From assembly GCF_001854865.1 (NCBI RefSeq), contig NZ_MDDW01000003.1:106527-118576 (forward strand): DNA of 12,050 nt, given 5' to 3'. The notes below the pieces were generated by a model that did not search any database, was not told the DNA's origin, and saw nothing but the letters and a program-made list of their open reading frames with translations. The translations under genes were made by a program, and so were the position numbers. Origin of the DNA: Rhizobium sp. LCM 4573. GTDB taxonomy: Bacteria; Pseudomonadota; Alphaproteobacteria; Rhizobiales; Rhizobiaceae. The stretch's first letter is position 1. Every line of letters begins with the position of its first letter. Below are positions 1,209 to 12,050 of this stretch, in pieces.

Positions 1209-1757
1209 ATGACAGGGCTGCTATCGCTCTCGCGCGCGATCGACGCGATCAATACGTTTTTTGGCAAGGCCGTATCCTGGCTGCTGCTGCTGGCCATTAT
1301 CATCAGCGCGGTAAACGCCACCACCCGCAAGCTTTTCAATCTCAGCTCCAATGCCTGGCTGGAAGCCCAGTGGTATCTCTTCTCAGCCGCCTTCCTGGTT
1401 GCCGCGGCCTATACGCTCCTTTCCAGCGAGCATGTGAGAGTGGACCTGGTGTACGGCAATCTGCCACGCAAGGCGCAGCTTTGGGTCGAAATCCTCGGCA
1501 CGATCTTTTTCCTCTTCCCGTTCTGCCTGATCACTATCTACCTGTCCTGGCCGACGGTGGCGGAAAAGTTCATGACCGGTGAGGTTTCGAACAATACCGG
1601 GGGCCTTATCCTCTGGCCGGTATGGGCCATGATCCCGCTAGGCTTCGCTCTTCTCACCCTGCAGGGCGTCTCCGAACTCATCAAGCGCATCGCTATCCTG
1701 CGCGGCGATCTGCCCGACACGGTGGCGCTGGCCGATGCCGAAGCCAAGGCCCTTTGA
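1209..1757 (+). CDS. TRAP transporter small permease (DctQ type)
   Basis: A 182-residue inner-membrane protein, the small permease of a tripartite ATP-independent periplasmic transporter. It forms the membrane complex with the large permease encoded 13 bases downstream. About four hydrophobic segments are visible (roughly residues 18-36, 52-70, 90-112 and 133-153). They carry features usual for DctQ proteins, such as the ISAVNATTRK segment after helix 1, the conserved EAQWYLF patch, and HVRVDLVY before helix 3. The start is supported by a strong Shine-Dalgarno sequence (GGGGAGG, 1195-1201) seven bases before the ATG. The length fits the family. It is the first gene of the transport unit, and the gap in front of it holds the dyad repeats that may control the operon. 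The substrate is decided mainly by the binding protein. Confidence 0.93.
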   Translation: MTGLLSLSRAIDAINTFFGKAVSWLLLLAIIISAVNATTRKLFNLSSNAWLEAQWYLFSAAFLVAAAYTLLSSEHVRVDLVYGNLPRKAQLWVEILGTIFFLFPFCLITIYLSWPTVAEKFMTGEVSNNTGGLILWPVWAMIPLGFALLTLQGVSELIKRIAILRGDLPDTVALADAEAKAL

Positions 1758-1770
1758 GGGAATTCCATAG

Positions 1771-3351
1771 ATGTTTGCATTCTTCGCGGAAAATCTCGCC
1801 CCGATCATGTTTCTGTCGCTGATCGTGGTGCTGCTCATCGGCTATCCGGTCGCCTTCGCCCTTGCCTTCGTAGGTTTTGTCTTCGGCTTCATCGGCATCG
1901 AAATGGGCCTGCTCCCTGCCAATCTGTTCGGCGCGATCCCGGACCGGATATTCGGGCAGATGTCAAACGAGACTCTGCTGGCTATTCCCTTCTTCACTTT
2001 CATGGGCTTGATCCTGGAGAGAAGCGGGATGGCCGAGGATCTGCTCGACACGATCGGACAGCTTTTCGGGCCCGTTCGGGGTGGCCTCGCCTTCGCCGTC
2101 ATCTTCGTCGGCGCCATTCTTGCCGCCACTACGGGCGTGGTCGCCGCCTCCGTCATTTCCATGGGCTTGATCTCACTGCCCATCATGCTCCGCTACGGCT
2201 ACGATCGGAAGGTCGCCTCCGGGACTATCGCCGCTTCCGGAACGCTCGCTCAGATTATCCCGCCGAGCCTCGTCCTGATCATCCTGGCCGACCAACTCGG
2301 CCGCTCGGTTGGCGACATGTACAAGGGCGCACTCGTTCCCGGTCTTCTGCTGGTCGCGGCCTATGCCGGCTACATCATCCTGATGTCCTTGATTCAGCCG
2401 CAGAGCGTCCCGGCACTTCCGCCGGAAGCCAGAACACTCAAAGGCTGGAAGCTTTTTCAGCGCGTCATCATTTCCCTGGTGCCGCCGCTGGTGCTGATCT
2501 TCCTGGTGCTCGGCACTATCTTCATCGGCCTTGCGACCCCGACGGAAGGCGGCGCGATGGGAGCCGTGGGCGCTCTGGTGCTTGCGGCAATGAACCGGCG
2601 GCTGGATCTCTCGATGATCAAGTCCGCCCTTTACGCGACGGTGAAGCTCTCCTCCTTCGTGATCTTCATCCTGCTCGGTGCCCGCGTCTTCTCGCTCACC
2701 TTCTACGGCGTGAACGGCCATATCTGGGTCGAGCACCTGATGACGTCCATTCCCGGTGGAGAAGTCGGCTTCCTGATCGTCGCCAACCTGCTCGTCTTCT
2801 TCCTTGCCTTCTTCCTGGATTATTTCGAGCTGGCCTTCATCATCATCCCGCTCCTGGCTCCCGTCGCGGACAGCCTCGGCATCGACCTCATCTGGTTCGG
2901 CGTGATGCTGGCGATCAACATGCAGACCTCGTTCATGCACCCGCCATTCGGCTTCTCCCTGTTCTACCTGCGCTCCGTCGCGCCGAACCGCGCCTACAAG
3001 GACAGGGTAACCGGCCAGACCATTCAGCCGGTCACCTCGGGGCAGATCTATATGGGCGCCCTCCCCTATCTGGCCATACAGCTCGTCATGGTGGCGGTGG
3101 TGATCACCTTCCCGCAGTTGGTGACGCACTACAAGTCCGGCCAAACCGTCGTCGATCCGGCCACGATCGAGCTCAATGTGCCGATGCCGGGAGAAGACGG
3201 AGGCAATCCGTTCGGCACGCCGGCTCCGCCCTTCGGCGCCGAACCCTCGGAAGGCGAGGTCCCACCGCCGACATTCGGCTCGCCCACTCCGGATTTTGGT
3301 TCTCCCACCCCGAGCTTCGGAGCCCCCCAGTCGGGCGGAACCAGTCCCTGA
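1771..3351 (+). CDS. TRAP transporter large permease (DctM type) with a Pro/Phe/Gly-rich C-terminal tail
   Basis: A 526-residue inner-membrane protein, the ion-coupled transport subunit of the TRAP system. Many hydrophobic helices run from about residue 8 to 450, with DctM-family segments such as IPFFTFMGLILERSGMAEDLL, GTLAQIIPPSLVLII, ATPTEGGAMGA and MQTSFMHPPFGFSLFYLR. The MHPPFGF motif and the large length place it with the TakM/FcbT3-like group rather than with short C4-dicarboxylate DctM. Residues 470-526 form a soluble tail with five FG dipeptides in a Pro-rich setting (FGTPAPPFG, FGSPTPDFG, FGSPTPSFG). The tail looks disordered and is not part of the core family. Translation may be helped by a GAGGG element overlapping the stop of the small permease gene. 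Two strong hairpins follow before the binding protein gene. Confidence 0.95.
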   Translation: MFAFFAENLAPIMFLSLIVVLLIGYPVAFALAFVGFVFGFIGIEMGLLPANLFGAIPDRIFGQMSNETLLAIPFFTFMGLILERSGMAEDLLDTIGQLFGPVRGGLAFAVIFVGAILAATTGVVAASVISMGLISLPIMLRYGYDRKVASGTIAASGTLAQIIPPSLVLIILADQLGRSVGDMYKGALVPGLLLVAAYAGYIILMSLIQPQSVPALPPEARTLKGWKLFQRVIISLVPPLVLIFLVLGTIFIGLATPTEGGAMGAVGALVLAAMNRRLDLSMIKSALYATVKLSSFVIFILLGARVFSLTFYGVNGHIWVEHLMTSIPGGEVGFLIVANLLVFFLAFFLDYFELAFIIIPLLAPVADSLGIDLIWFGVMLAINMQTSFMHPPFGFSLFYLRSVAPNRAYKDRVTGQTIQPVTSGQIYMGALPYLAIQLVMVAVVITFPQLVTHYKSGQTVVDPATIELNVPMPGEDGGNPFGTPAPPFGAEPSEGEVPPPTFGSPTPDFGSPTPSFGAPQSGGTSP

Positions 3352-3361
3352 TCGTCAAATC

Positions 3362-3383
3362 CACGCCCGGCATTCCGGGCGTG
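3362..3383 (+). other. Intergenic hairpin 1 between large permease and binding protein genes
   Basis: CACGCCCGG, loop CATT, CCGGGCGTG: a perfect 9-bp GC-rich stem starting 10 bases after the permease stop. No T-run follows (CCGTTATCC), so it is not a good intrinsic terminator. A role in 3'-end protection, partial attenuation or processing, to set the level of the binding protein against the permeases, is inference. Confidence 0.6.
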
Positions 3384-3391
3384 CCGTTATC

Positions 3392-3410
3392 CGGTCAAGG
3401 CACTTGACCG
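3392..3410. other. Intergenic hairpin/palindrome 2 upstream of binding protein gene
   Basis: CGGTCAAG-GCA-CTTGACCG is a perfect 8-bp dyad with a 3-base centre, 8 bases after hairpin 1 and 28 bases before the binding-protein ATG. It could be an RNA hairpin or an operator. The symmetry alone does not tell which. Confidence 0.55.
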
Positions 3411-3438
3411 TGATCCAACCCAAATGAGGAGGACAGAC

Positions 3439-4554
3439 ATGACCGATACACTAAGCCGTCGCGGCTTCCTGACGAAGGGAGCCATCGCCGGCGCGGCCAC
3501 CGCAGCGGGCGCCTCGCTTGCCGCCCCGGCCATCGCCCAGGAGCTTCCGACGCTCCGTTGGCGTCTGACGTCCGGCTTTCCCAACAACCTCGACACAATC
3601 TACGGCGGCGCCGTCGTCATGGCCGAGGCGCTATCCAAGATCACCGAGGGCAAGTTCCAGATCCAGGTCTTCCAGGCCGGCGAACTGGTTCCCGGCGCCC
3701 AGGCGATCGACGCGGTGAAGGCCAATACCGTCGAGCTTGCCCATACCTGCGGCTACTATTTCACCGGAAAGGATCCGACGTTCGCGATCGGCTCCACCAT
3801 CCCCTTCGGCCTCAACGGCCGCCAGCAGAATGCCTGGCTCTATCATGGGGGCGGCAACGAGGCCTATAACGAGTTTCTGGCGGACTATGGCGTCGTCGGC
3901 ATTCCGGGTGGCGCCACGGGCGCTCAGATGGGCGGCTGGTTCCGCAAGGAGATCAAGAGCACGGCCGACCTCCAGGGCGTCAAGATGCGCATCGCCGGTG
4001 TCGCCGGCGAGGTGATGTCGCGCCTCGGCGTCGTCCCGCAACAGCTTCCGGGCGGCGACATCTATCCGGCGCTGGAGCGCGGCACGATCGATGCGGCCGA
4101 ATGGATCGGACCTTATGACGACGAGAAGCTCGGCTTCTATCAGATCGCCCCGAACTACTACTATCCGGCCTATTGGGAAGGCGGTCTGACGATCCACTTC
4201 TTCATCAACAAGGCCCAGTACGAAGGCTTGCCGGAAGCTTACAAGGCGGCTCTCGACACAGCCTGCAAGGCGGCCAATGTCAACATGCAGGCCCTCTACG
4301 ACGTCAAGAACACGACGGCGATCCGCTCGCTCGTCGGCAAGGGCGTGAAGCTGCGCCCCCTGCCCCGCGACGTGATGGATGCCGCCTACAAGGCCGCATT
4401 CGAACTCTACGGCGAATATGCCGAGAAGCACCCGGCATGGGCGAAGATCTACCCCGGCTGGAAGAAGTTCCGCGATGAATCCTTCGAGTGGTTCCGCGTC
4501 GCGGAATATAGCTACGACAGCTACATGTATGCAGCCCAGGCCGCAAAGAAATGA
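3439..4554 (+). CDS. TRAP transporter periplasmic substrate-binding protein (DctP family, TakP/FcbT1-like), Tat-exported
   Basis: A 371-residue periplasmic solute receptor that delivers substrate to the two permeases encoded upstream. The N-terminus has a twin-arginine signal (SRRGFLTKG, residues 6-14), an Ala-rich core and a likely cleavage site after AIA (residue 33). The mature protein has the DctP fold markers: a carboxylate-binding Arg in KMRIAG (Arg184), Gln163 in AQMGGWF, and EW in IDAAEWIGPYDD (221-222). The EWIGPYDD and YYPAYWEGG motifs resemble TakP (2-oxo acids such as pyruvate) and FcbT1 (chlorinated aromatic acids), so a monocarboxylate or keto acid is the best guess. I chose the ATG at 3439 because GAGGAGG (3426-3432) lies six bases before it; the in-frame ATG at 3424 overlaps that Shine-Dalgarno sequence. 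Confidence 0.94.
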   Translation: MTDTLSRRGFLTKGAIAGAATAAGASLAAPAIAQELPTLRWRLTSGFPNNLDTIYGGAVVMAEALSKITEGKFQIQVFQAGELVPGAQAIDAVKANTVELAHTCGYYFTGKDPTFAIGSTIPFGLNGRQQNAWLYHGGGNEAYNEFLADYGVVGIPGGATGAQMGGWFRKEIKSTADLQGVKMRIAGVAGEVMSRLGVVPQQLPGGDIYPALERGTIDAAEWIGPYDDEKLGFYQIAPNYYYPAYWEGGLTIHFFINKAQYEGLPEAYKAALDTACKAANVNMQALYDVKNTTAIRSLVGKGVKLRPLPRDVMDAAYKAAFELYGEYAEKHPAWAKIYPGWKKFRDESFEWFRVAEYSYDSYMYAAQAAKK

Positions 4555-4623: not shown

Positions 4624-5148
4624 CTATTCGTTGAGCTTCTTCGCCATTTGAAGATGATGTTCCAGTGCCGAGACCTTGCCGGCGGCCCAGGACCTGAGCT
4701 CCGCGTTTTCACCTTCTTCACCGTAGCGCTTGAACAAGTCCACGGCTTCCTCATGGGCCTCAACCTGGTCCGACCGATATTGCTGGGTGAATTCGTCACC
4801 CTGCAGGCTGTTCAACTTGTCGAGCAATTCCTGATGAGCCGGCGTCATGGCCGTGGGCAGGGCCGCCTTCACCTTTCCACCGTCAACGAGTTGCTTGAGC
4901 TCGGCCGTCGTCTTCTGATGATCCTCGATCATCTGCTGCGCGAAGGTTTTTGTCGCCGCATCGCTGCGTTCGGCCGCGAGCTTGCTTGATTCAATCTCGA
5001 ACATATCGCTCGATGCCGCCTCCTTCACGAAATCCTCGGTCTTGGGAGCAACCCCCATCAGCGTGTTGACGCCGGATTTTTCCGCTGCGGATTGCGCAAG
5101 GGCCGATGCGGCCGCCAGCATGGCGGCCATGAAAACGATCTTTCTCAT
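4624..5148 (-). CDS. Exported DUF4142 family protein
   Basis: A 174-residue protein with a short Sec signal (MRKIVFMAAMLAAASALAQ, likely cut after ALA at about residue 18). An all-helical domain of the DUF4142 family follows, a ferritin-like four-helix bundle of unknown function, often exported. Family marks are FVKEAASSDMFEIESSKLAAERS (about residues 40-62), FAQQMIEDHQKTTAEL (69-84), and the C-terminal AVDLFKRYGEEGENAELRSWA and LEHHLQMA stretches. The His/Glu pattern resembles metal-binding bundles, but metal binding is not shown. The start has a good Shine-Dalgarno sequence (AAGGAG). A candidate GGAAC-N16-TGTT promoter lies 31 bases upstream, which suggests general-stress sigma control. The gene faces the TRAP operon tail to tail and has no operon partner. 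Confidence 0.9.
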   Translation of the reverse strand: MRKIVFMAAMLAAASALAQSAAEKSGVNTLMGVAPKTEDFVKEAASSDMFEIESSKLAAERSDAATKTFAQQMIEDHQKTTAELKQLVDGGKVKAALPTAMTPAHQELLDKLNSLQGDEFTQQYRSDQVEAHEEAVDLFKRYGEEGENAELRSWAAGKVSALEHHLQMAKKLNE

Positions 5149-5501: not shown

Positions 5502-6887
5502 CTATCTAGCGCACAGCGTAGCTGCACTCAGAAGTCCCCATCCATAGATCACATCCTTGCCCGGCGTTCCCATATCCGCGGCAGTTCGCATCAGTTCCGT
5601 CTCGATCTCCCGCGGGGTGAGTTCCGGGCGGGTGGCCCGCATGACGGCTGCGGCCGCGGTGACGAACGGGGCGGCAAACGACGTGCCGCTCTTTTGCCGT
5701 GCACCGGAAATCGACGCGGCAGTCCAGACACCAACGCCTGGAGCGGCGATATCGATATGCGGCCCGCGTACGGCGCGGCGATAGGGCTTTCTTGCGCGAT
5801 CCACGGCGGTGACCGCAATCACATCCTCATAGGCTGCGGGATAAACCGGTTTTGCATTGGGGCCATCATTGCCGGCGGCCGCGATCAGGATGGCACCCTG
5901 TCCGACCGCGGTGCGGACCGCTTGCTCGAGCAGCAGGTTCGGCGGGCCCGTGAGGCTCAGGTTGATTACGCTTACCCCACGCCCGGCGAGAAGGTCCAGC
6001 GCCCGCACGAGGTCGTAGGCGCTGGCGATATCCGCCGTATTGCCGAACCGGTGAAAGGCATCGATGGCAATCAGCTCCGATGATGGAAGCAATCCGGGCG
6101 TTCGGCCTTCAGGCGATCCGACGAGAAGTGCGGCGACCGCCGTGCCGTGCTGCTCACCCGATCGCGGCAAGCTCTCTTTGCCGAGGCGGATCACCTCTAT
6201 GCGGGCACCGTCGAAAGCGGCATGGCCGGCATTGATGGCCGTATCAACGAGACCGATCGGTTGCGGCGTGATGCAAGCACCGTCTTTGCCTGGTTCGACC
6301 GGCCAGCCGACCATGTGCCGCACCAGGGCGCAGCCACTCTTGCCACAGGCTGCTGAGCCAGCCTGTTCGGGCTGGTAGTAATGGTTGAAATCCACCGAAG
6401 CCGACGGGGCCTGTGCCGCGACCGCCTGACGGGCAGCGTCGAGCGTCATGCCCTGCGGAATCGTCAACCGCACCAACTCGCTTCCGGTAAGCGCAATCTG
6501 CTGGCGATCGTCCACCACAAAGCCGGTCTGCACTAGGGTGGCGATCGATGTTTCGTCCAGTCCGAGCGCAGCGATCTCGTTCGGCGCTCTATCGGGGACG
6601 ATGATCCGGCGGCGGACCGGAGCCGGCCGTGATTCACGCCGAGGCGCGCGCCATAGCGTGCGGCTGTCCCTGCGCCGATCATCGTCATCGTCGCGGTAGT
6701 ACCCGCCGCCCCGGTCGTCATCATCCCCGTCATCGTCGTCTCCCCCATCGTCATCATCATCCGCATAGGCGGCGGAGATGCCGGCGAGACCGAAGTGTTG
6801 TATGCCAGGCAGCGCCAGTTCTCCTGCAAGAACCAGGCAAAGGAGCACAGCCAACCGGCTGGCACGGCTTGCAGGCAAACAGGTCAT
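5502..6887 (-). CDS. Exported subtilisin-like serine protease (S8 family) with Asp-rich N-terminal region
   Basis: A 461-residue secreted or periplasmic protease. The signal peptide core is RLAVLLCLVLAGELALPG, and a later AYA site suggests cleavage near residue 42. An acidic stretch follows (about 43-75, mostly Asp with Gly, Arg and Tyr), then a basic Arg/Pro segment (77-100) and an N-terminal domain (about 101-175) that may act as a prodomain. The S8 catalytic set is complete: Asp215 (GLVDTAI), His248 (EQHGTAVA), oxyanion Asn340 (AAAGNDGP) and Ser403 (SGTSFAAP). Four Cys (181, 186, 205, 459) could form disulfides. The ATG has a modest GGAG upstream. The gene is divergent from the ECF sigma gene and has a GGAAT-N16-CGTC site 67 bases upstream, so it is probably part of that sigma factor's regulon. 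The substrate is unknown. Confidence 0.93.
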   Translation of the reverse strand: MTCLPASRASRLAVLLCLVLAGELALPGIQHFGLAGISAAYADDDDDGGDDDDGDDDDRGGGYYRDDDDDRRRDSRTLWRAPRRESRPAPVRRRIIVPDRAPNEIAALGLDETSIATLVQTGFVVDDRQQIALTGSELVRLTIPQGMTLDAARQAVAAQAPSASVDFNHYYQPEQAGSAACGKSGCALVRHMVGWPVEPGKDGACITPQPIGLVDTAINAGHAAFDGARIEVIRLGKESLPRSGEQHGTAVAALLVGSPEGRTPGLLPSSELIAIDAFHRFGNTADIASAYDLVRALDLLAGRGVSVINLSLTGPPNLLLEQAVRTAVGQGAILIAAAGNDGPNAKPVYPAAYEDVIAVTAVDRARKPYRRAVRGPHIDIAAPGVGVWTAASISGARQKSGTSFAAPFVTAAAAVMRATRPELTPREIETELMRTAADMGTPGKDVIYGWGLLSAATLCAR

Positions 6888-6954: not shown

Positions 6955-6979
6955 GACGGATGACTCGACAGAATATTCC
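6955..6979 (-). promoter_or_regulatory. Candidate ECF promoter of the S8 protease gene (GGAAT-N16-CGTC)
   Basis: Read on the minus strand: GGAAT at 6979-6975, a 16-base spacer, CGTC at 6958-6955, then 67 bases to the protease ATG. The -35 element directly abuts the first possible ATG of the divergent sigma gene (6980), so the two genes' start regions overlap. It has the same architecture as the sites at 7490, 8307 and 9188. Confidence 0.65.
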
Positions 6980-7543
6980 ATGCCGTGCCAAAGATTTCCG
7001 ATGACGAACGATACGCTCAATGTGCCCGAACGGCTGGTCGCCTTTCTGCCGAACCTCCGGCGGTTCGCGATCTCGCTCTGCCATTCGCGCGAGCTTGCCG
7101 ATGACCTGGTGCAATCCACCTGCGAGCGGGCGATCGCCGCGGCGGATACCTTCGTGGCGGGCACCCGCTTCGACGCATGGCTGTTCAGGATTCTCCGGAA
7201 TCTGTGGATTGATCATCTGCGGCGCGCCAGGACAGCCGGACCGCAGGAAGATCTCGAAGAGGCTCGAGAGGTCTCCACCCCTTCTGGCGAAGCAGCCTCG
7301 GAAGCGCGCATGACGCTTCTGGAAGTTACCGAAGCGCTTCAAAAACTTCCCGAAGAGCAACGGGAAGTCCTGGTCCTCGTATGCGTCGAGGAGTTGAGCT
7401 ATCGCGACACCGCCGAGGTCCTGTCTATTCCGATCGGCACGGTGATGAGCCGTCTTGCGCGCGCCCGCAAAAATTTGGCCGAGCTGATGGGAATAAGCGG
7501 GGAGGAAAAACGTTCGTCGAACATGAAGGGCGATGTGGCATGA
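6980..7543 (+). CDS. ECF-family RNA polymerase sigma factor
   Basis: A 187-residue extracytoplasmic-function sigma factor with only regions 2 and 4. Region 2 covers about residues 19-82 (FLPNLRRFAISLC, ELADDLVQSTCERAI, RFDAWLFRILRNLWIDHLRR). Region 4 covers about 121-173 (LPEEQREVLVLVCVEELSYRDTAEVL, then the helix-turn-helix IPIGTVMSRLARARKNL). The ATG at 7001 (180 residues, MTNDTLNVPERL) is an equally likely or better start because it gives the usual short N-terminus; neither ATG has a good Shine-Dalgarno sequence. The gene overlaps the anti-sigma gene by ATGA and is divergent from the protease. No GGAAT-N16-CGTY site was seen in front of the sigma gene itself, so direct positive autoregulation is not supported. 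I did not assign an ECF group. Confidence 0.95.
   Translation: MPCQRFPMTNDTLNVPERLVAFLPNLRRFAISLCHSRELADDLVQSTCERAIAAADTFVAGTRFDAWLFRILRNLWIDHLRRARTAGPQEDLEEAREVSTPSGEAASEARMTLLEVTEALQKLPEEQREVLVLVCVEELSYRDTAEVLSIPIGTVMSRLARARKNLAELMGISGEEKRSSNMKGDVA
7490..7514 (+). promoter_or_regulatory. Candidate internal ECF promoter for the anti-sigma gene (GGAAT-N16-CGTT)
   Basis: GGAAT (7490-7494), 16 bases, CGTT (7511-7514), all inside the last codons of the sigma gene and 25 bases before the anti-sigma ATG. The site has the same geometry as the other three. It would give extra anti-sigma transcript when the sigma factor is active, a negative feedback loop. Being inside coding sequence, it could also be chance, which lowers confidence a little. 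Confidence 0.55.
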
Positions 7544-8289
7544 AGAAGCACGAATTCGACGACGAAACATTGATGGCTTATGCCGATGGCGAGCTGGACG
7601 ATGAGACAGCCGCCGGGCTTGAGGCCGCTCTCGAAGCCGATGAAGCCCTCGCCACACGCCTCGCCGTCTTTCTCGACAGCCGGGCCGCGGTCGCTTCTGC
7701 GCTGAAACCCCTCATTCATGAGCCAGTGCCCGAAGCGCTTCTAACTTCCGTCAGGCACATGGCTGAAAAGGCCAAGCCGGTTGAAGATGTGCGAGCGAGA
7801 AATGTCATCGCGTTCCGCCAGAAGCAAGCAGCACTCAAGCAACCACTTCGCAGTTGGCTCATTCCCGTCGCCGCATCGCTCCTGGCCGTCGTAGCAGGCC
7901 TTGGCGGCTTCATGCTCGGGCGGGAGATCGGTGTCACGGGATCGGACGCCGGTGCCGCGCTTACCGCCGCGCTCGATCGGGAAGTCTCGGGAAGCGACGT
8001 GACGCTCGGCAGTTCCGGTGAAACACTGCGTGTGGTTGCCAGCTTCCGAGACGAACATGGCGATCTCTGCCGCGAATACGAGCGCAGGCATCACGGCGTA
8101 AGTACGGTTTCGATAGCATGCCGCGAGGCCGGCACCTGGGTAACCCGGCTGGCATTGTCGGCTCCGCGTGCCGAGGGCTATACCACGGCCTCCGCCCAGG
8201 AAACGATCGACGCCTATCTTGCTTCGATCCACGCAGGCGCGCCGCTTACTCCCGAGGAAGAACGGGAAGCACTTGCCACCTTTCGCTGA
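7540..8289 (+). CDS. Membrane-anchored anti-sigma factor, partner of the ECF sigma factor
   Basis: A 249-residue single-pass protein. The cytoplasmic N-terminus (FDDETLMAYADGELDDETAAGLEAAL, residues 6-31) is the short helical anti-sigma domain typical of ECF partners, but it has none of the His-x3-Cys-x2-Cys ligands of zinc-binding (ZAS) members. One membrane helix spans about 107-127 (LIPVAASLLAVVAGLGGFMLG). The periplasmic part (129-249) contains a CREYE ... ACREAGTW segment with two Cys (177 and 194), resembling the C-terminal region of 17-kDa-type surface antigens. This may be the sensory part. The start is set by the ATGA overlap with the sigma gene and by GAAGGG nine bases upstream. Coupled synthesis should keep the sigma factor bound until a signal from the envelope arrives. 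Confidence 0.88.
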   Translation: MKKHEFDDETLMAYADGELDDETAAGLEAALEADEALATRLAVFLDSRAAVASALKPLIHEPVPEALLTSVRHMAEKAKPVEDVRARNVIAFRQKQAALKQPLRSWLIPVAASLLAVVAGLGGFMLGREIGVTGSDAGAALTAALDREVSGSDVTLGSSGETLRVVASFRDEHGDLCREYERRHHGVSTVSIACREAGTWVTRLALSAPRAEGYTTASAQETIDAYLASIHAGAPLTPEEEREALATFR

Positions 8290-8306
8290 AAATTTGCTTG
8301 CTTAAG

Positions 8307-8331
8307 GGAATAATCCGAACTCGCTGCCGTT
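8307..8331 (+). promoter_or_regulatory. Candidate ECF promoter of the DUF6065-like gene (GGAAT-N16-CGTT)
   Basis: GGAAT (8307-8311), 16 bases, CGTT (8328-8331), 32 bases before the ATG at 8364. The flanks also match the site at 9188: both read GGAATAA and GCCGTTTC, which makes a shared sigma factor more likely. Confidence 0.65.
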
Positions 8332-8333
8332 TC

Positions 8334-8355
8334 CCTCACCATTGAACGTGTGAGG
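8334..8355 (+). promoter_or_regulatory. Leader hairpin overlapping a Shine-Dalgarno sequence
   Basis: CCTCAC (8334-8339) can pair with GTGAGG (8350-8355), and the right arm contains part of the Shine-Dalgarno sequence GAGGAG (8352-8357) of the next gene. Folding would hide the ribosome binding site. With only six base pairs and a 10-base loop it may be chance. Confidence 0.3.
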
Positions 8356-8363
8356 AGACCGCG

Positions 8364-9080
8364 ATGAAGCTCTCTCTGCTGAGAAAGCCGCAGCCGATGA
8401 TAACCTTCCTCTGCCGCAAGGAAGACGAAGGCGTGATCCCTGCGCCGGTGCAGGCAAAAACTGCCCTGCCCGCCTGGTTTCGCAAGCTGCCACCCGTCAG
8501 CGAAGACCACGTCTCGCCCAATGACAGCGGACTCACAGTAAAACGCTGCATGCCGTTTCTGGACGCCATGGCTGCCGGCTGGGTGATAGGCCTTGCCGCA
8601 ACGGTGCGGATGGAAATCGCCGATAACGGCAGCACGGTCAGATGCGGTTGGGATTTCGATCGCACCATGGTCAGCAATCACGCGGGCCACCAAGTGGCCG
8701 GAAATCCCCGCGAACCACTGCCGCCTTGCAAGTTCCACAACTATTGGACCATCCGCACGCCCCCCGGCTGGAGTTGCCTTTTCGTGCCGCCGCTCAATCG
8801 GCCGAACGGCGTATTCGAGATCGTCGCGGGCATCGTCGATACGGATAGCTACCAGTCGGAGATTCATTTTCCCTTCTTCGCCACGGGTGAGGACGGCCTG
8901 CATGTGCTGGAACGCGGCACCCCGATCGTGCAGATCATTCCTTTCCGCCGCGAGACGTCGGATTTGCCAGCCGAGATCCGCGCCGAAAACGGGCAGGAAG
9001 AGGTGGTCCGAAAGACGATCTTCCGCAAAACGCTCGCTTCAGATGGCTGGTACAGAAAGTTCGCGCGCGCCCAGCGATAA
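8364..9080 (+). CDS. DUF6065-like protein of unknown function
   Basis: A 238-residue soluble protein with no signal peptide or membrane helix. It resembles the DUF6065 family, whose role is unknown; the assignment is from memory of the pattern and is moderately sure. Notable segments are PAWFRKLPP (35-43), KRCMPFLDAMAAGWVI (60-75), NYWTIRTPPGWSCLFVPPLNRPNG (129-152), and IVDTDSYQSEIHFPFF followed by LERGTPIVQIIPFRRE (about 160-196). These aromatic and Pro-rich stretches suggest a compact beta-rich fold. The start has an excellent Shine-Dalgarno sequence (GAGGAG, six bases before the ATG). The gene has its own GGAAT-N16-CGTT site, so it may respond to the sigma factor encoded upstream although it is separated from the anti-sigma gene by 74 bases. 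A perfect hairpin follows at 9107-9135. Confidence 0.85.
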   Translation: MKLSLLRKPQPMITFLCRKEDEGVIPAPVQAKTALPAWFRKLPPVSEDHVSPNDSGLTVKRCMPFLDAMAAGWVIGLAATVRMEIADNGSTVRCGWDFDRTMVSNHAGHQVAGNPREPLPPCKFHNYWTIRTPPGWSCLFVPPLNRPNGVFEIVAGIVDTDSYQSEIHFPFFATGEDGLHVLERGTPIVQIIPFRRETSDLPAEIRAENGQEEVVRKTIFRKTLASDGWYRKFARAQR

Positions 9081-9106
9081 CGCGATCAGGAAAAATGCAT
9101 CTGATA

Positions 9107-9135
9107 CCGTCGCCGGGATACAAAGCCGGCGACGG
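9107..9135 (+). terminator. Strong hairpin after the DUF6065-like gene
   Basis: CCGTCGCCGG and CCGGCGACGG form a perfect 10-bp stem around a 9-base loop, 26 bases after the stop codon. There is no T-run on the plus strand, so termination is likely but not classical. It separates the DUF6065 transcript from the next promoter. Confidence 0.55.
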
Positions 9136-9170
9136 CGCTTGCGCGTGAGAAAACATCGATAAGCGACTGA

Positions 9171-9188
9171 AATATTTTGAATATTTTG
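9171..9188 (+). repeat. Tandem AT-rich 9-bp repeat upstream of a promoter
   Basis: AATATTTTG occurs twice head to tail and its last G is the first base of the -35 GGAAT at 9188. AT-rich DNA at this position commonly acts as an UP element bound by the alpha subunit of RNA polymerase; a regulator site is the other option. Confidence 0.45.
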
Positions 9189-9212
9189 GAATAAATGCGA
9201 CTTCACGCCGTT
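9188..9212 (+). promoter_or_regulatory. Candidate ECF promoter of the Ser/Asn-rich gene (GGAAT-N16-CGTT)
   Basis: GGAAT (9188-9192), 16 bases, CGTT (9209-9212), 45 bases before the ATG at 9258. It is the closest match in flanking bases to the site at 8307 and has an AT-rich tandem repeat directly upstream. Confidence 0.65.
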
Positions 9213-9257: not shown

Positions 9258-9638
9258 ATGAAAAAAGTCATCGCAATGTTAAGCGCATTTCTAGCGTTTG
9301 GGGTCGTGACTCCCGCACCGGCCAATGCCGATGATCCGCTCACGCGCTTCCTCGACAAATCGTTCCACAGCGGCAAGGCAACCTATGCCTCCTCCCGTCG
9401 TAGTCGGGATGATGATGGCCGCAGAGGCTGGTCGAACTCCAGCTCGAACCGGAATTCCAACAGCTCGTCGGATTCATCGAGCAACTCGAATTCCAATTCC
9501 AGTTCCAATAGCAACTCCAATTCGTCCAATAACTCGAGCTCCAACAGCAACTCGAACTCTTCGAGCAATTCCAGCTCGAACAGCTCGTCCAACTCATCCA
9601 GCAACTCGAGCTCGAATTCCTCCTCCGACGACGATTGA
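9258..9638 (+). CDS. Secreted Ser/Asn-rich low-complexity protein
   Basis: A 126-residue exported protein. A clear Sec signal peptide (MKKVIAMLSAFLAFGVV, cut after ANA at residue 24) is followed by a short normal segment (25-58: DDPLTRFLDKSF and a basic RRSRDDDGRRGW patch). Then comes a tract from 59 to 123 made almost only of Ser and Asn, ending as five SSSN repeats, and a final DDD. Ser is encoded by all six of its codons and Asn by both, so the composition is held by selection on the protein and is not a simple triplet expansion. AAGGAG nine bases upstream supports the start. I recognise no family. A flexible extracellular or surface linker is plausible. It shares a promoter type with the protease, which might act on it; that is speculation. 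Confidence 0.85.
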   Translation: MKKVIAMLSAFLAFGVVTPAPANADDPLTRFLDKSFHSGKATYASSRRSRDDDGRRGWSNSSSNRNSNSSSDSSSNSNSNSSSNSNSNSSNNSSSNSNSNSSSNSSSNSSSNSSSNSSSNSSSDDD

Positions 9639-9696: not shown

Positions 9697-10902
9697 TCAG
9701 ACCCGTTCGAGCGCGATCGAAATGCCTTGACCGACACCGATGCACATGGTGGCGAGTGCGAGCCTGCCGCCGGAAAACTGCAGTTCGAGCGCCGCAGTGC
9801 CGGTGATGCGTGCGCCGGACATGCCGAGTGGGTGGCCGAGCGCGATCGCACCGCCATTCTTGTTGACACGAACGTCGTAGTCGGCAATGCCGAGCTCGCG
9901 CAGCGTGGCAAGGCCCTGGCTGGCGAAGGCCTCGTTGAGTTCGATCACATCGAACCGCTCCTGCGTAAGCCCGAGGCGCGCCATCAGTTTCTGTGACGCC
10001 GGTGCCGGGCCGATCCCCATGATGCGCGGAGGAACGCCTGCCGTTGCGCCGCCAAGGATGCGTGCGATTGGCGTGAGGCCATGTTTTCTTGCGGCGGCTT
10101 CCGAGGCGATGATAAGACCTGCGGCGCCGTCATTGACGCCGGAGGCATTGCCTGCCGTCACCGTACCGCCTTCCTTTTTGAAGGGCGTACCGAGCTTTGC
10201 AAGGGCCTCGATCGTTGTGGCGCGCGGATGCTCGTCCTTCTCGACGACGATAGGATCGCCCTTGCGCTGCGGGATCGTCACCGGAGCAATTTCCTTCGCC
10301 AGGCGACCGTTTGTCTGAGCTTCCGCGGCCTTCGCCTGGCTGCGGACGGCAAAGGCATCCTGGTCTTCGCGGCTCACCTTGAAGTCTTCCGCAACGTTCT
10401 CGCCGGTCTCCGGCATCGAATCCACACCGTATTGCTTCTTCATCAGCGGGTTGATGAACCGCCAGCCGATCGTCGTGTCGTAGATCTCCGCATTGCGCGA
10501 GAAAGCCGTGTCTGCCTTCGGCATGACGAACGGCGCGCGGCTCATGCTCTCCACGCCGCCGGCGATGATGAACTCGGCTTCGCCCGACTTGATGGCGCGG
10601 GCGGCGGTGATCACCGCATCCATGCCCGAGCCGCAAAGGCGGTTGATTGTCGTGCCAGTCACCGAGACGGGTAGGCCCGCCAGCAGCAGCGACATGCGCG
10701 CGACATTGCGGTTGTCCTCGCCCGCCTGGTTGGCGCAGCCGAAGATGACGTCCTCAACCGCCTCCCAATCCACCTTGGCGTTACGCTTCATCAGGGCTTT
10801 CAGCGGGATGGCGCCAAGATCGTCGGTGCGGACGGAGGAGAGCGATCCGCCGAAGCGGCCGATGGGCGTGCGGATATAGTCGCAGATATAGGCTTCGGTC
10901 AT
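9697..10902 (-). CDS. pcaF: 3-oxoadipyl-CoA thiolase (beta-ketoadipyl-CoA thiolase)
   Basis: A 401-residue cytoplasmic thiolase that splits 3-oxoadipyl-CoA with CoA into succinyl-CoA and acetyl-CoA, the last step of the beta-ketoadipate pathway for protocatechuate and catechol. All catalytic residues are present: nucleophile Cys90 (NRLCGSGMDAV), His357 (GHPLGMSGAR) and Cys387 (CIGVGQG), with the NEAFA motif at 323-327. The start MTEAYICDYIRTP is chosen because GAGGAGG lies just upstream and the length equals that of known PcaF; a longer frame into pcaJ is not real. Its stop-to-start gap with pcaJ is 10 bases and the pcaJ stop overlaps the Shine-Dalgarno region, so it is the third gene of a pcaIJF operon. 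General acetyl-CoA acetyltransferases are similar, but the neighbours favour PcaF. Confidence 0.94.
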   Translation of the reverse strand: MTEAYICDYIRTPIGRFGGSLSSVRTDDLGAIPLKALMKRNAKVDWEAVEDVIFGCANQAGEDNRNVARMSLLLAGLPVSVTGTTINRLCGSGMDAVITAARAIKSGEAEFIIAGGVESMSRAPFVMPKADTAFSRNAEIYDTTIGWRFINPLMKKQYGVDSMPETGENVAEDFKVSREDQDAFAVRSQAKAAEAQTNGRLAKEIAPVTIPQRKGDPIVVEKDEHPRATTIEALAKLGTPFKKEGGTVTAGNASGVNDGAAGLIIASEAAARKHGLTPIARILGGATAGVPPRIMGIGPAPASQKLMARLGLTQERFDVIELNEAFASQGLATLRELGIADYDVRVNKNGGAIALGHPLGMSGARITGTAALELQFSGGRLALATMCIGVGQGISIALERV

Positions 10903-10912
10903 GGCTTCCTCC

Positions 10913-11617
10913 TCAAAGTTCCGGCACGACGAGATCGGCCACCTGGCCTTCCATGTGCAATGGTGCACCCGTCATAGCCTGCAGTTCCTCGATCGTCATG
11001 GCGGAAAGCTTCTCGCGCACCACGAAATGACCGTCCTTGATATCCACTACCGCATGGCTGGTATAGACGCGCGTGATGCAGCCTACGCCGGTCAGCGGGA
11101 AGGTGCACTTCTCGACCAGCTTCGGTTCACCATTCTTTGCCACATGCTCGGTGATGACGAAGACCTGTTTGGCGCCGTGCACGAGGTCCATCGCACCGCC
11201 AACCGCCGGCACGCCCTTGCTGCCCACCCGCCAATTGGCGAGATCGCCGTTCTGAGCGACCTGATAGGCCCCGAGGATAGCGACGTCGAGATGGCCCCCA
11301 CGCACCATGGCAAAGCTGTCGGCATGGTGGAAGAAGGCAGCGCCCGGCTTCAGCGTGACGGCCTTCTTGCCCGCGTTGATCAAGTCCCAGTCTTCCTCGC
11401 CCTTCGGCGGTGCTTCGCCGAAGTTCAAAATGCCGTTTTCGGTGTGGAAGATCGCCTCCCGCCCCGGCGGCTGGTAACGGGCCACCATTTCCGGAAAACC
11501 GATACCGAGATTGACATAGGCGCCATCGGCGATGTCCTGCGCCGCGCGCCAGGCGATCTGCGCATTGGAAAGCTTGATGTCTTCTCGGGTGTCGATCGCG
11601 TTCGTATCGCGGGTCAT
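10913..11617 (-). CDS. pcaJ: 3-oxoadipate CoA-transferase, subunit B (beta)
   Basis: A 234-residue subunit that, with PcaI, moves CoA from succinyl-CoA to 3-oxoadipate. The catalytic Glu that forms the acyl-CoA intermediate in this family is Glu60 in the HTENGIL motif; the GAYVNLGIGFPEMVA segment (32-46) and GGHLDVAILGAYQV are also typical. Length is close to the family's usual 210-235. The start MTRDTN is fixed by the ATGA overlap with the end of pcaI. It is followed by pcaF 10 bases later. In rhizobia such operons are usually controlled by an IclR-type regulator (PcaR) upstream of pcaI; that region is outside the window. Confidence 0.95.
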   Translation of the reverse strand: MTRDTNAIDTREDIKLSNAQIAWRAAQDIADGAYVNLGIGFPEMVARYQPPGREAIFHTENGILNFGEAPPKGEEDWDLINAGKKAVTLKPGAAFFHHADSFAMVRGGHLDVAILGAYQVAQNGDLANWRVGSKGVPAVGGAMDLVHGAKQVFVITEHVAKNGEPKLVEKCTFPLTGVGCITRVYTSHAVVDIKDGHFVVREKLSAMTIEELQAMTGAPLHMEGQVADLVVPEL

Positions 11618-12050
11618 ATGTATGCCACTCCGGCCTGGATGAGTTCTTCTTCCTGCTGCGGGTCGGTCACTTCGACGACATGATCGACGAAGATGCCAGG
11701 GGTGACGACCTGTTCCGGGTCTATGCCTCCTGGCAGCACAATCTTTGAGACTTGGGCGATCGTCTTTTCCGCCGCCATGCACATCAGCGGGTTAAAGTTG
11801 CGGCCCGCCTTGTTGTAGGTGAGATTGCCGTGGGTATCGCCGACATGCGCTTTGACGATCGCGAAATCCGCCTTCAGCCAGCGTTCCTGCACATATTTCC
11901 GGCCATCGAATTCGGCGATCGGCTTGCCCTCGGCAAGCTCGGTACCGTAGCTCGTCGGCGTGTAGAAGGCGGGAATGCCCGCGCCGCCGGCACGAATGCG
12001 CTCGGCAAGCGTCCCCTGCGGAACCAATTCAAGCTCGATCTCGCCGGCAA
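11614..12050 (-). CDS. pcaI: 3-oxoadipate CoA-transferase, subunit A (alpha), C-terminal part; 5' end outside window
   Basis: The last 144 or so residues of the alpha subunit, which pairs with PcaJ. The frame stays open to the window edge (reading AGEIELELVPQGTLAERIR), so the TTG near 12027 is an ordinary Leu codon. Family marks are the QGTLAERIRAGGAGIPAFYTPT segment, GRKYVQERWLKADFAIVKAH, GDTHGNLTYNKAGRNFNP and a C-terminal VDHVVEV. The stop overlaps the pcaJ start (ATGA), so the two subunits are translationally coupled, as expected for a heteromeric enzyme. Confidence 0.94.
   Translation of the reverse strand, partial: AGEIELELVPQGTLAERIRAGGAGIPAFYTPTSYGTELAEGKPIAEFDGRKYVQERWLKADFAIVKAHVGDTHGNLTYNKAGRNFNPLMCMAAEKTIAQVSKIVLPGGIDPEQVVTPGIFVDHVVEVTDPQQEEELIQAGVAYI

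Follow-up and report, generated by a model that had tools for sequence, protein, structure and literature searches.

The stretch of DNA analysed here, referred to as the window, comprises 12,050 nucleotides of Rhizobium sp. LCM 4573 (contig NZ_MDDW01000003.1, positions 106,527 to 118,576) and carries a gene pair for an extracytoplasmic function (ECF) sigma factor and an anti-sigma factor, together with three companion genes and four candidate promoter elements. The sigma gene (7001..7543, plus strand) encodes both sigma-70 regions, 2 (PF04542) and 4 (PF08281), within 187 amino acids and scores 100.4 bits against TIGR02937 (cut-off 42.9); an in-frame ATG further upstream, at 6980, is absent from the relatives listed. 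The gene for a predicted membrane-bound anti-sigma factor (7540..8289, plus) matches the anti-sigma family NF052375 with an E-value of 6.2e-10, although short of that family's cut-off, and zf-HC2 weakly (19.0 bits against a cut-off of 22.2). On the minus strand, a divergent gene (5502..6887) encodes an S8 subtilisin-type protease of 461 amino acids (PF00082, E 1.4e-36; many subtilisin structure matches) with a signal-peptide-like N-terminus followed by an Asp/Gly-rich stretch. On the plus strand follow a DUF6065 protein gene (8364..9080; PF19541, E 6e-7) and a small Ser/Asn-rich protein gene (9258..9638), the latter a 126-amino-acid open reading frame (ORF) with a signal-peptide-like start, no Pfam match and orthologues in the related loci L031–L033. 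The gene identities proposed in a first-pass annotation of the sequence thus hold.

That annotation had picked out four GGAAT-N16-CGTY elements and read them as the promoters of a local regulon. An exact scan of both strands recovered all four, at 6979–6955 on the minus strand before the S8 gene (ending CGTC), and on the plus strand at 7490..7514 within the sigma ORF before the anti-sigma gene, at 8307..8331 before the DUF6065 gene and at 9188..9212 before the Ser/Asn-rich gene; there was no fifth match, as had been judged by eye. The corresponding start codons follow at computed distances of 67, 25, 32 and 45 bases, respectively, agreeing with the 25–67 bases first given. The expectation of 0.2 matches per window was slightly low, with 200 dinucleotide shuffles of the window giving a mean of 0.30 (maximum 2, never four). 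The whole-genome search that had been proposed gave 128 matches in 5.52 Mb (58 and 70 on the two strands), against 31 (14 and 17) for the reversed control, or ∼0.28 per window length, so that the four sites represent a local excess. The stricter form GGAATA-N15-CGTT occurs nine times in the genome (reversed control, four); three of these are the window sites at 7490, 8307 and 9188, and the other six fall within ORFs of at least 150 amino acids on one or both strands. The weakest of the four window elements, the S8 site, does not belong to these nine.

The first-pass annotation did not recognise the set as a described system, but Sinorhizobium meliloti RpoE6-EcfR6 (SMa0143–SMa0144), of group ECF26, consists of the same genes with published promoters carrying the same element (PMC6180224). 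The window sigma factor shares 65% identity with RpoE6 across 177 residues, the next best being same-genome paralogues at 41–42%, and in a tree RpoE6 is nested among the orthologues, although two long-branch paralogues also fall inside and the deep part is unsafe. The window genes are orthologues of rpoE6, ecfR6, SMa0142 (S8) and SMa0148 (DUF6065). As in the window, the S. meliloti anti-sigma gene lies downstream of the sigma gene, an S8 protease gene is divergent and a DUF6065 gene is nearby, and GGAATA...CGTT precedes the S8 and DUF6065 genes as well as the anti-sigma gene, in the last case from inside the sigma gene. The order in S. meliloti pSymA of strain ml46 (L109) is VOC, S8, sigma, anti-sigma, hypothetical protein, DUF6065. 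Unlike the window, S. meliloti has its DUF6065 gene on the opposite strand, counts a VOC (glyoxalase superfamily) gene among the targets and carries a second type of Ser/Asn-rich gene, which the L109 annotation places on the other strand. A divergent serine protease and a downstream anti-sigma gene are described as widely conserved among ECF26 members (PMC6180224), and both are found in the window and in L109; the window elements likewise show the GGAATA −35 and the GT-containing −10 of the published RpoE6-type consensus (PMC6180224).

Promoters have been published for ecfR6, SMa0142, SMa0148, rpoE6 and SMa0139, and RpoE6 overexpression gave log fold changes of 3.6 for ecfR6, 4.7 for SMa0142 and 6.5 for SMa0148 (PMC6180224, Table 1). 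The published ecfR6, SMa0142, SMa0148 and rpoE6 stretches each match L109 at 39 of 39 bases. Two other S. meliloti sigma factors, RpoE1 and RpoE4, are also ECF26 members with similar −35/−10 elements but, unlike RpoE6, have the genes for sulfite oxidation and their own operons as targets (PMC3511301, PMC6180224); preliminary data report that RpoE6 is not induced by sulfite-generating compounds (PMC3511301). The envelope response first suggested for the window finds no support in PMC6180224, which gives RpoE6 no functional role.

To follow the element in relatives, the anti-sigma protein was searched in 297 genomes of the family. Matches were found in 79, of which 46 were long (E ≤1.2e-15, own genome included) and the rest partial and weak. 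The four same-genus genomes in this search gave no match, so the locus is accessory; a further same-genus genome (G306) carries it, as its three strict sites, those known from L031, show. We assembled 51 loci (640,690 bases), namely 45 matched by the anti-sigma protein, three from named genomes, L109, a Rhizobium leguminosarum plasmid (L110) and the window. The conservation of the motifs at orthologous loci, put forward as a check by the first-pass annotation, could be followed directly: L031 and L033 keep all four and L032 keeps three, its S8 gene having none. Across the 51 loci there are 150 GGAATA-N15-CGTT sites, against 0–3 at each of the spacings 10–14 and 16–20, none for the reversed motif and a median of 0 (maximum 4) for 200 letter-shuffled motifs. 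The S8 gene adjoins the sigma/anti-sigma pair in 45 of the 51 loci, and GGAAT-N16-CGTY lies upstream of 45/51 anti-sigma, 37/45 S8 and 14/15 DUF6065 genes (the exception being that of L071), as well as 15/15 glycerate-kinase-like genes, 11/15 SLC13-type permease genes and 5/6 genes of one further family. Among control ORFs of at least 200 amino acids the strict motif was found upstream of only 2/362, a comparison that slightly favours the named families, which were scored up to 330 bases upstream and the controls up to 150; in all the named families but S8, no more than 105 bases separate the end of the motif from the start.

A large dispersed regulon using the strict element was considered and set aside. 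The 42 genomes compared, out of the 46 with a full-length anti-sigma gene, contain 386 strict sites. Once the 129 that fall in the fetched loci are subtracted, 257 remain (6.1 per genome), versus 117 (5.9 per genome) in 20 tested genomes without the system, a set of smaller genomes; reversed-motif controls numbered 125 and 80, and eleven genomes (G297–G307) stood outside the comparison. The motif precedes the same set of genes in relatives, its strong enrichment is confined to a single spacing and it shows no distant excess, which upholds the local regulon first proposed.

The element at 7490..7514 is written into the sigma gene in frame (GGA ATA ... CGT T) and is the orthologue of the ecfR6 promoter already published. 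The sigma reading frame runs through the anti-sigma promoter in 42 loci, where the element encodes G-I-x5-R; three further motif loci were omitted from the codon count (L068, in frame; L071, motif past the sigma stop; L097, sigma stop within the element). At the Gly position GGA is used in 42/42 loci, compared with 30/275 over the 150 codons before it; at Ile, ATA is used in 41/42 versus 32/344, and at Arg, CGT in 42/42 versus 73/712. The conserved C-terminal residues (Gly-Ile ... Arg), kept in all 42 counted loci, and the position inside an ORF could suggest that the element is a by-product of the protein rather than a promoter. We consider this very improbable, as the codon bias far exceeds what the protein requires and the S. 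meliloti counterpart is a published promoter (PMC6180224). Codon choice here goes beyond the demand of the protein sequence and marks the element as a dual-coding promoter.

Taken together, these data make it very probable that the window holds a local regulon, its four promoters being read by an ECF26 sigma factor orthologous to S. meliloti RpoE6. The motif, its conservation, the gene set, the dual coding and the orthology are seen here, and promoters and induction by RpoE6 overexpression are published for the orthologue (PMC6180224). We infer recognition by this sigma factor in Rhizobium sp. LCM 4573. Several points weigh against this reading. Anti-sigma homology was the basis for selecting the 51 loci, which are related, so that the counts are not independent events. 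The motif is missing before the anti-sigma gene in 6/51 loci (L099, L102, L105–L108) and before the S8 gene in 8/45 (L032, L064, L065, L078, L079, L086, L108 and L110, the R. leguminosarum plasmid). The promoter of SMa0139, a further published RpoE6 target, matches L109 at 32/39 bases and lacks GGAATA, and other S. meliloti ECF26 sigma factors also read such promoters (PMC10880074).

The last point touches the alternative that the elements are genuine promoters served chiefly by some other sigma factor of the cell, such as EcfG or a different ECF member. Seven further sigma matches in the host genome make candidates available, a heterologous ECF26 promoter is activated in S. meliloti by RpoE1, RpoE4 and RpoE6 (PMC10880074), and the RpoE2 and RpoE6 regulons overlap there (PMC6180224). 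Against this, the best other sigma match in the genome is only 41–42% identical, and the motif accompanies this particular sigma/anti-sigma pair across relatives. The nearest other sigma gene (L112) lies beside a PhyR-like gene and is probably EcfG. EcfG (ECF15) is characterized by a GGAAC −35 element, a small NepR anti-sigma factor and PhyR. It shares a similar −35/−10 geometry with the window system, but all four window elements have GGAAT, GGAAC-N16-CGTT occurs only four times in the 51 loci, and the neighbours of the window sigma gene are the S8, anti-sigma and DUF6065 genes rather than PhyR and NepR. We therefore regard a different reader as improbable. Chance was set aside on the window scan, the spacing test and the control ORFs; most of the 128 loose genome matches are probably fortuitous, but local excess, orthologous conservation, spacing specificity and the control ORFs leave next to no room for such an origin of the four elements.

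In the RpoE6-like regulon as we read it, the freed sigma factor would steer RNA polymerase to GGAATA-N15-CGTY promoters and turn on a secreted subtilisin-type protease, the DUF6065 protein and a small exported Ser/Asn-rich protein; it would also turn on the anti-sigma gene from the promoter embedded in its own coding sequence. On its own strand the sigma gene has a motif (spacers of 15–17 allowed) in only 5/51 loci (L082, L087, L088, L105, L108), and since it mostly lacks the element, feedback should be negative; from the motif distribution, active sigma factor should increase expression of its targets and of its inhibitor, but that of its own gene in few lineages. The published rpoE6 promoter has RpoD/RpoH-like motifs (PMC6180224). 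Placed on L109, the published starts of rpoE6 (6406, plus) and SMa0142 (6397, minus) cross by ∼10 bases, the two promoters facing each other and overlapping, and in 38/51 loci the region separating the S8 gene from the sigma gene contains a motif whose −35 side faces the latter. In this arrangement bound sigma holoenzyme would block the sigma gene promoter. We infer membrane topology, negative feedback, signal and role of the system likewise. A tentative and rather doubtful extension is that RpoE6-type systems are self-limiting pulse circuits, in which the inhibitor would be driven from C-terminal codons of the sigma gene, and sigma factor bound at the protease promoter would also shut off its own gene, whose housekeeping-type promoter overlaps that site. 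The input would be the state of an invariant pair of periplasmic cysteines in the anti-sigma factor, and the output a secreted subtilisin plus an exported low-complexity partner rich in Ser/Asn or Gly/Ser.

One transmembrane segment and a periplasmic domain would be expected of an RpoE6-type anti-sigma factor. The window protein has a hydrophobic segment near residues 108–126 (hydropathy peak 2.14); the peak is at least 1.6 in 40/51 proteins and 1.47 in the L109 EcfR6 counterpart. Within the predicted periplasmic part, Cys177 and Cys194 (window numbering) are present in all 51 aligned proteins, including the distant L105–L108, and no other alignment column has cysteine in five or more of them. 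The two residues are likely to form a disulfide. A zinc-binding anti-sigma factor was considered and rejected, as there is no N-terminal cysteine column and, of five full-length proteins scanned, a single one (L031, 22.7 bits) scores above the zf-HC2 cut-off; in the same five, the periplasmic domain has no Pfam match above cut-off.

A Ser/Asn-rich gene of the window's type stands behind the motif in 9/51 loci and the second type, judged by eye, in six more. In L109 the annotated hypothetical gene between anti-sigma and DUF6065 (7792–8181, minus) reads as a Glu/Leu-rich string, while on the plus strand a motif at 7809 is followed after 49 bases by a 120-amino-acid ORF whose product has a signal-peptide-like N-terminus and ends in a Ser/Asn-rich tail; DNA of strain Rm1021 (L127) has the same motif and the start of the same ORF. 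The minus-strand annotation in S. meliloti pSymA (ml46) is thus a probable strand error, and the ORF would, from gene order, be the locus SMa0146. In about seven loci, by eye, a small protein with a Gly/Ser-rich tail and a twin-arginine-like start lies behind the motif (L076, L082, L087–L090, L098); such proteins may be the counterpart where the Ser/Asn-rich gene is missing.

For the DUF6065 protein, a model from four close sequences was unusable (predicted local distance difference test, pLDDT, 34.4), and in a later one (pLDDT 82.8) structure comparison points to a predicted dUTPase-like fold. The dUTPase family PF00692 gave no match at E up to 0.01; a weak profile comparison (probability 0.94 percent, E 0.058) aligns VD.D and RG...Q with dUTPase motifs. 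Relatives (L128–L207) occur in many phage contigs and haloarchaeal tailed viruses, with 37–47% identity among the matches listed. The open-licence literature yielded no paper on DUF6065, alone or with an ECF sigma factor.

Other neighbours were noted. Glycerate-kinase-like and SLC13-type permease genes adjoin the locus with the same element, often as a pair (L064, L066, L070, L072, L074, L077–L079, L086–L088, L094 and others); the window has neither. The SLC13 name is the record's annotation in L110, where the gene lies 34 bases behind the Ser/Asn-rich gene. G306 and G300 have a further site pair resembling the glycerate-kinase/permease pair, on another contig. A DUF4142 exported protein gene (4624–5148, minus) adjoins the window S8 gene without a motif and, among three relatives checked, is beside the locus only in L031. 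By eye from their ORFs, a TRAP transporter (1209–4554, plus) and thiolase and CoA-transferase genes (9697–12048, minus), as in beta-ketoadipate breakdown, form the flanks.

The first-pass annotation was thus right in its observation and in proposing a local regulon, but not in taking the system as undescribed. New here are the comparative proof, the codon-level constraint, the cysteine pair, the wider output set, the SMa0146 strand question and the predicted DUF6065 fold; available open-licence passages on RpoE6 and ECF26 do not discuss the internal-promoter conservation, the cysteine pair or the SMa0146 strand. The locus is tied to RpoE6, a published system of obscure function, with a core conserved across the family, in which a dual-coding promoter would hard-wire feedback via the anti-sigma factor. 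The outputs of an RpoE6-type system can now be listed as a protease, a low-complexity exported protein, a protein of predicted dUTPase fold, a glycerate-kinase-like enzyme and a permease, and the candidate disulfide in the sensor part and the probable strand error are testable parts of it.

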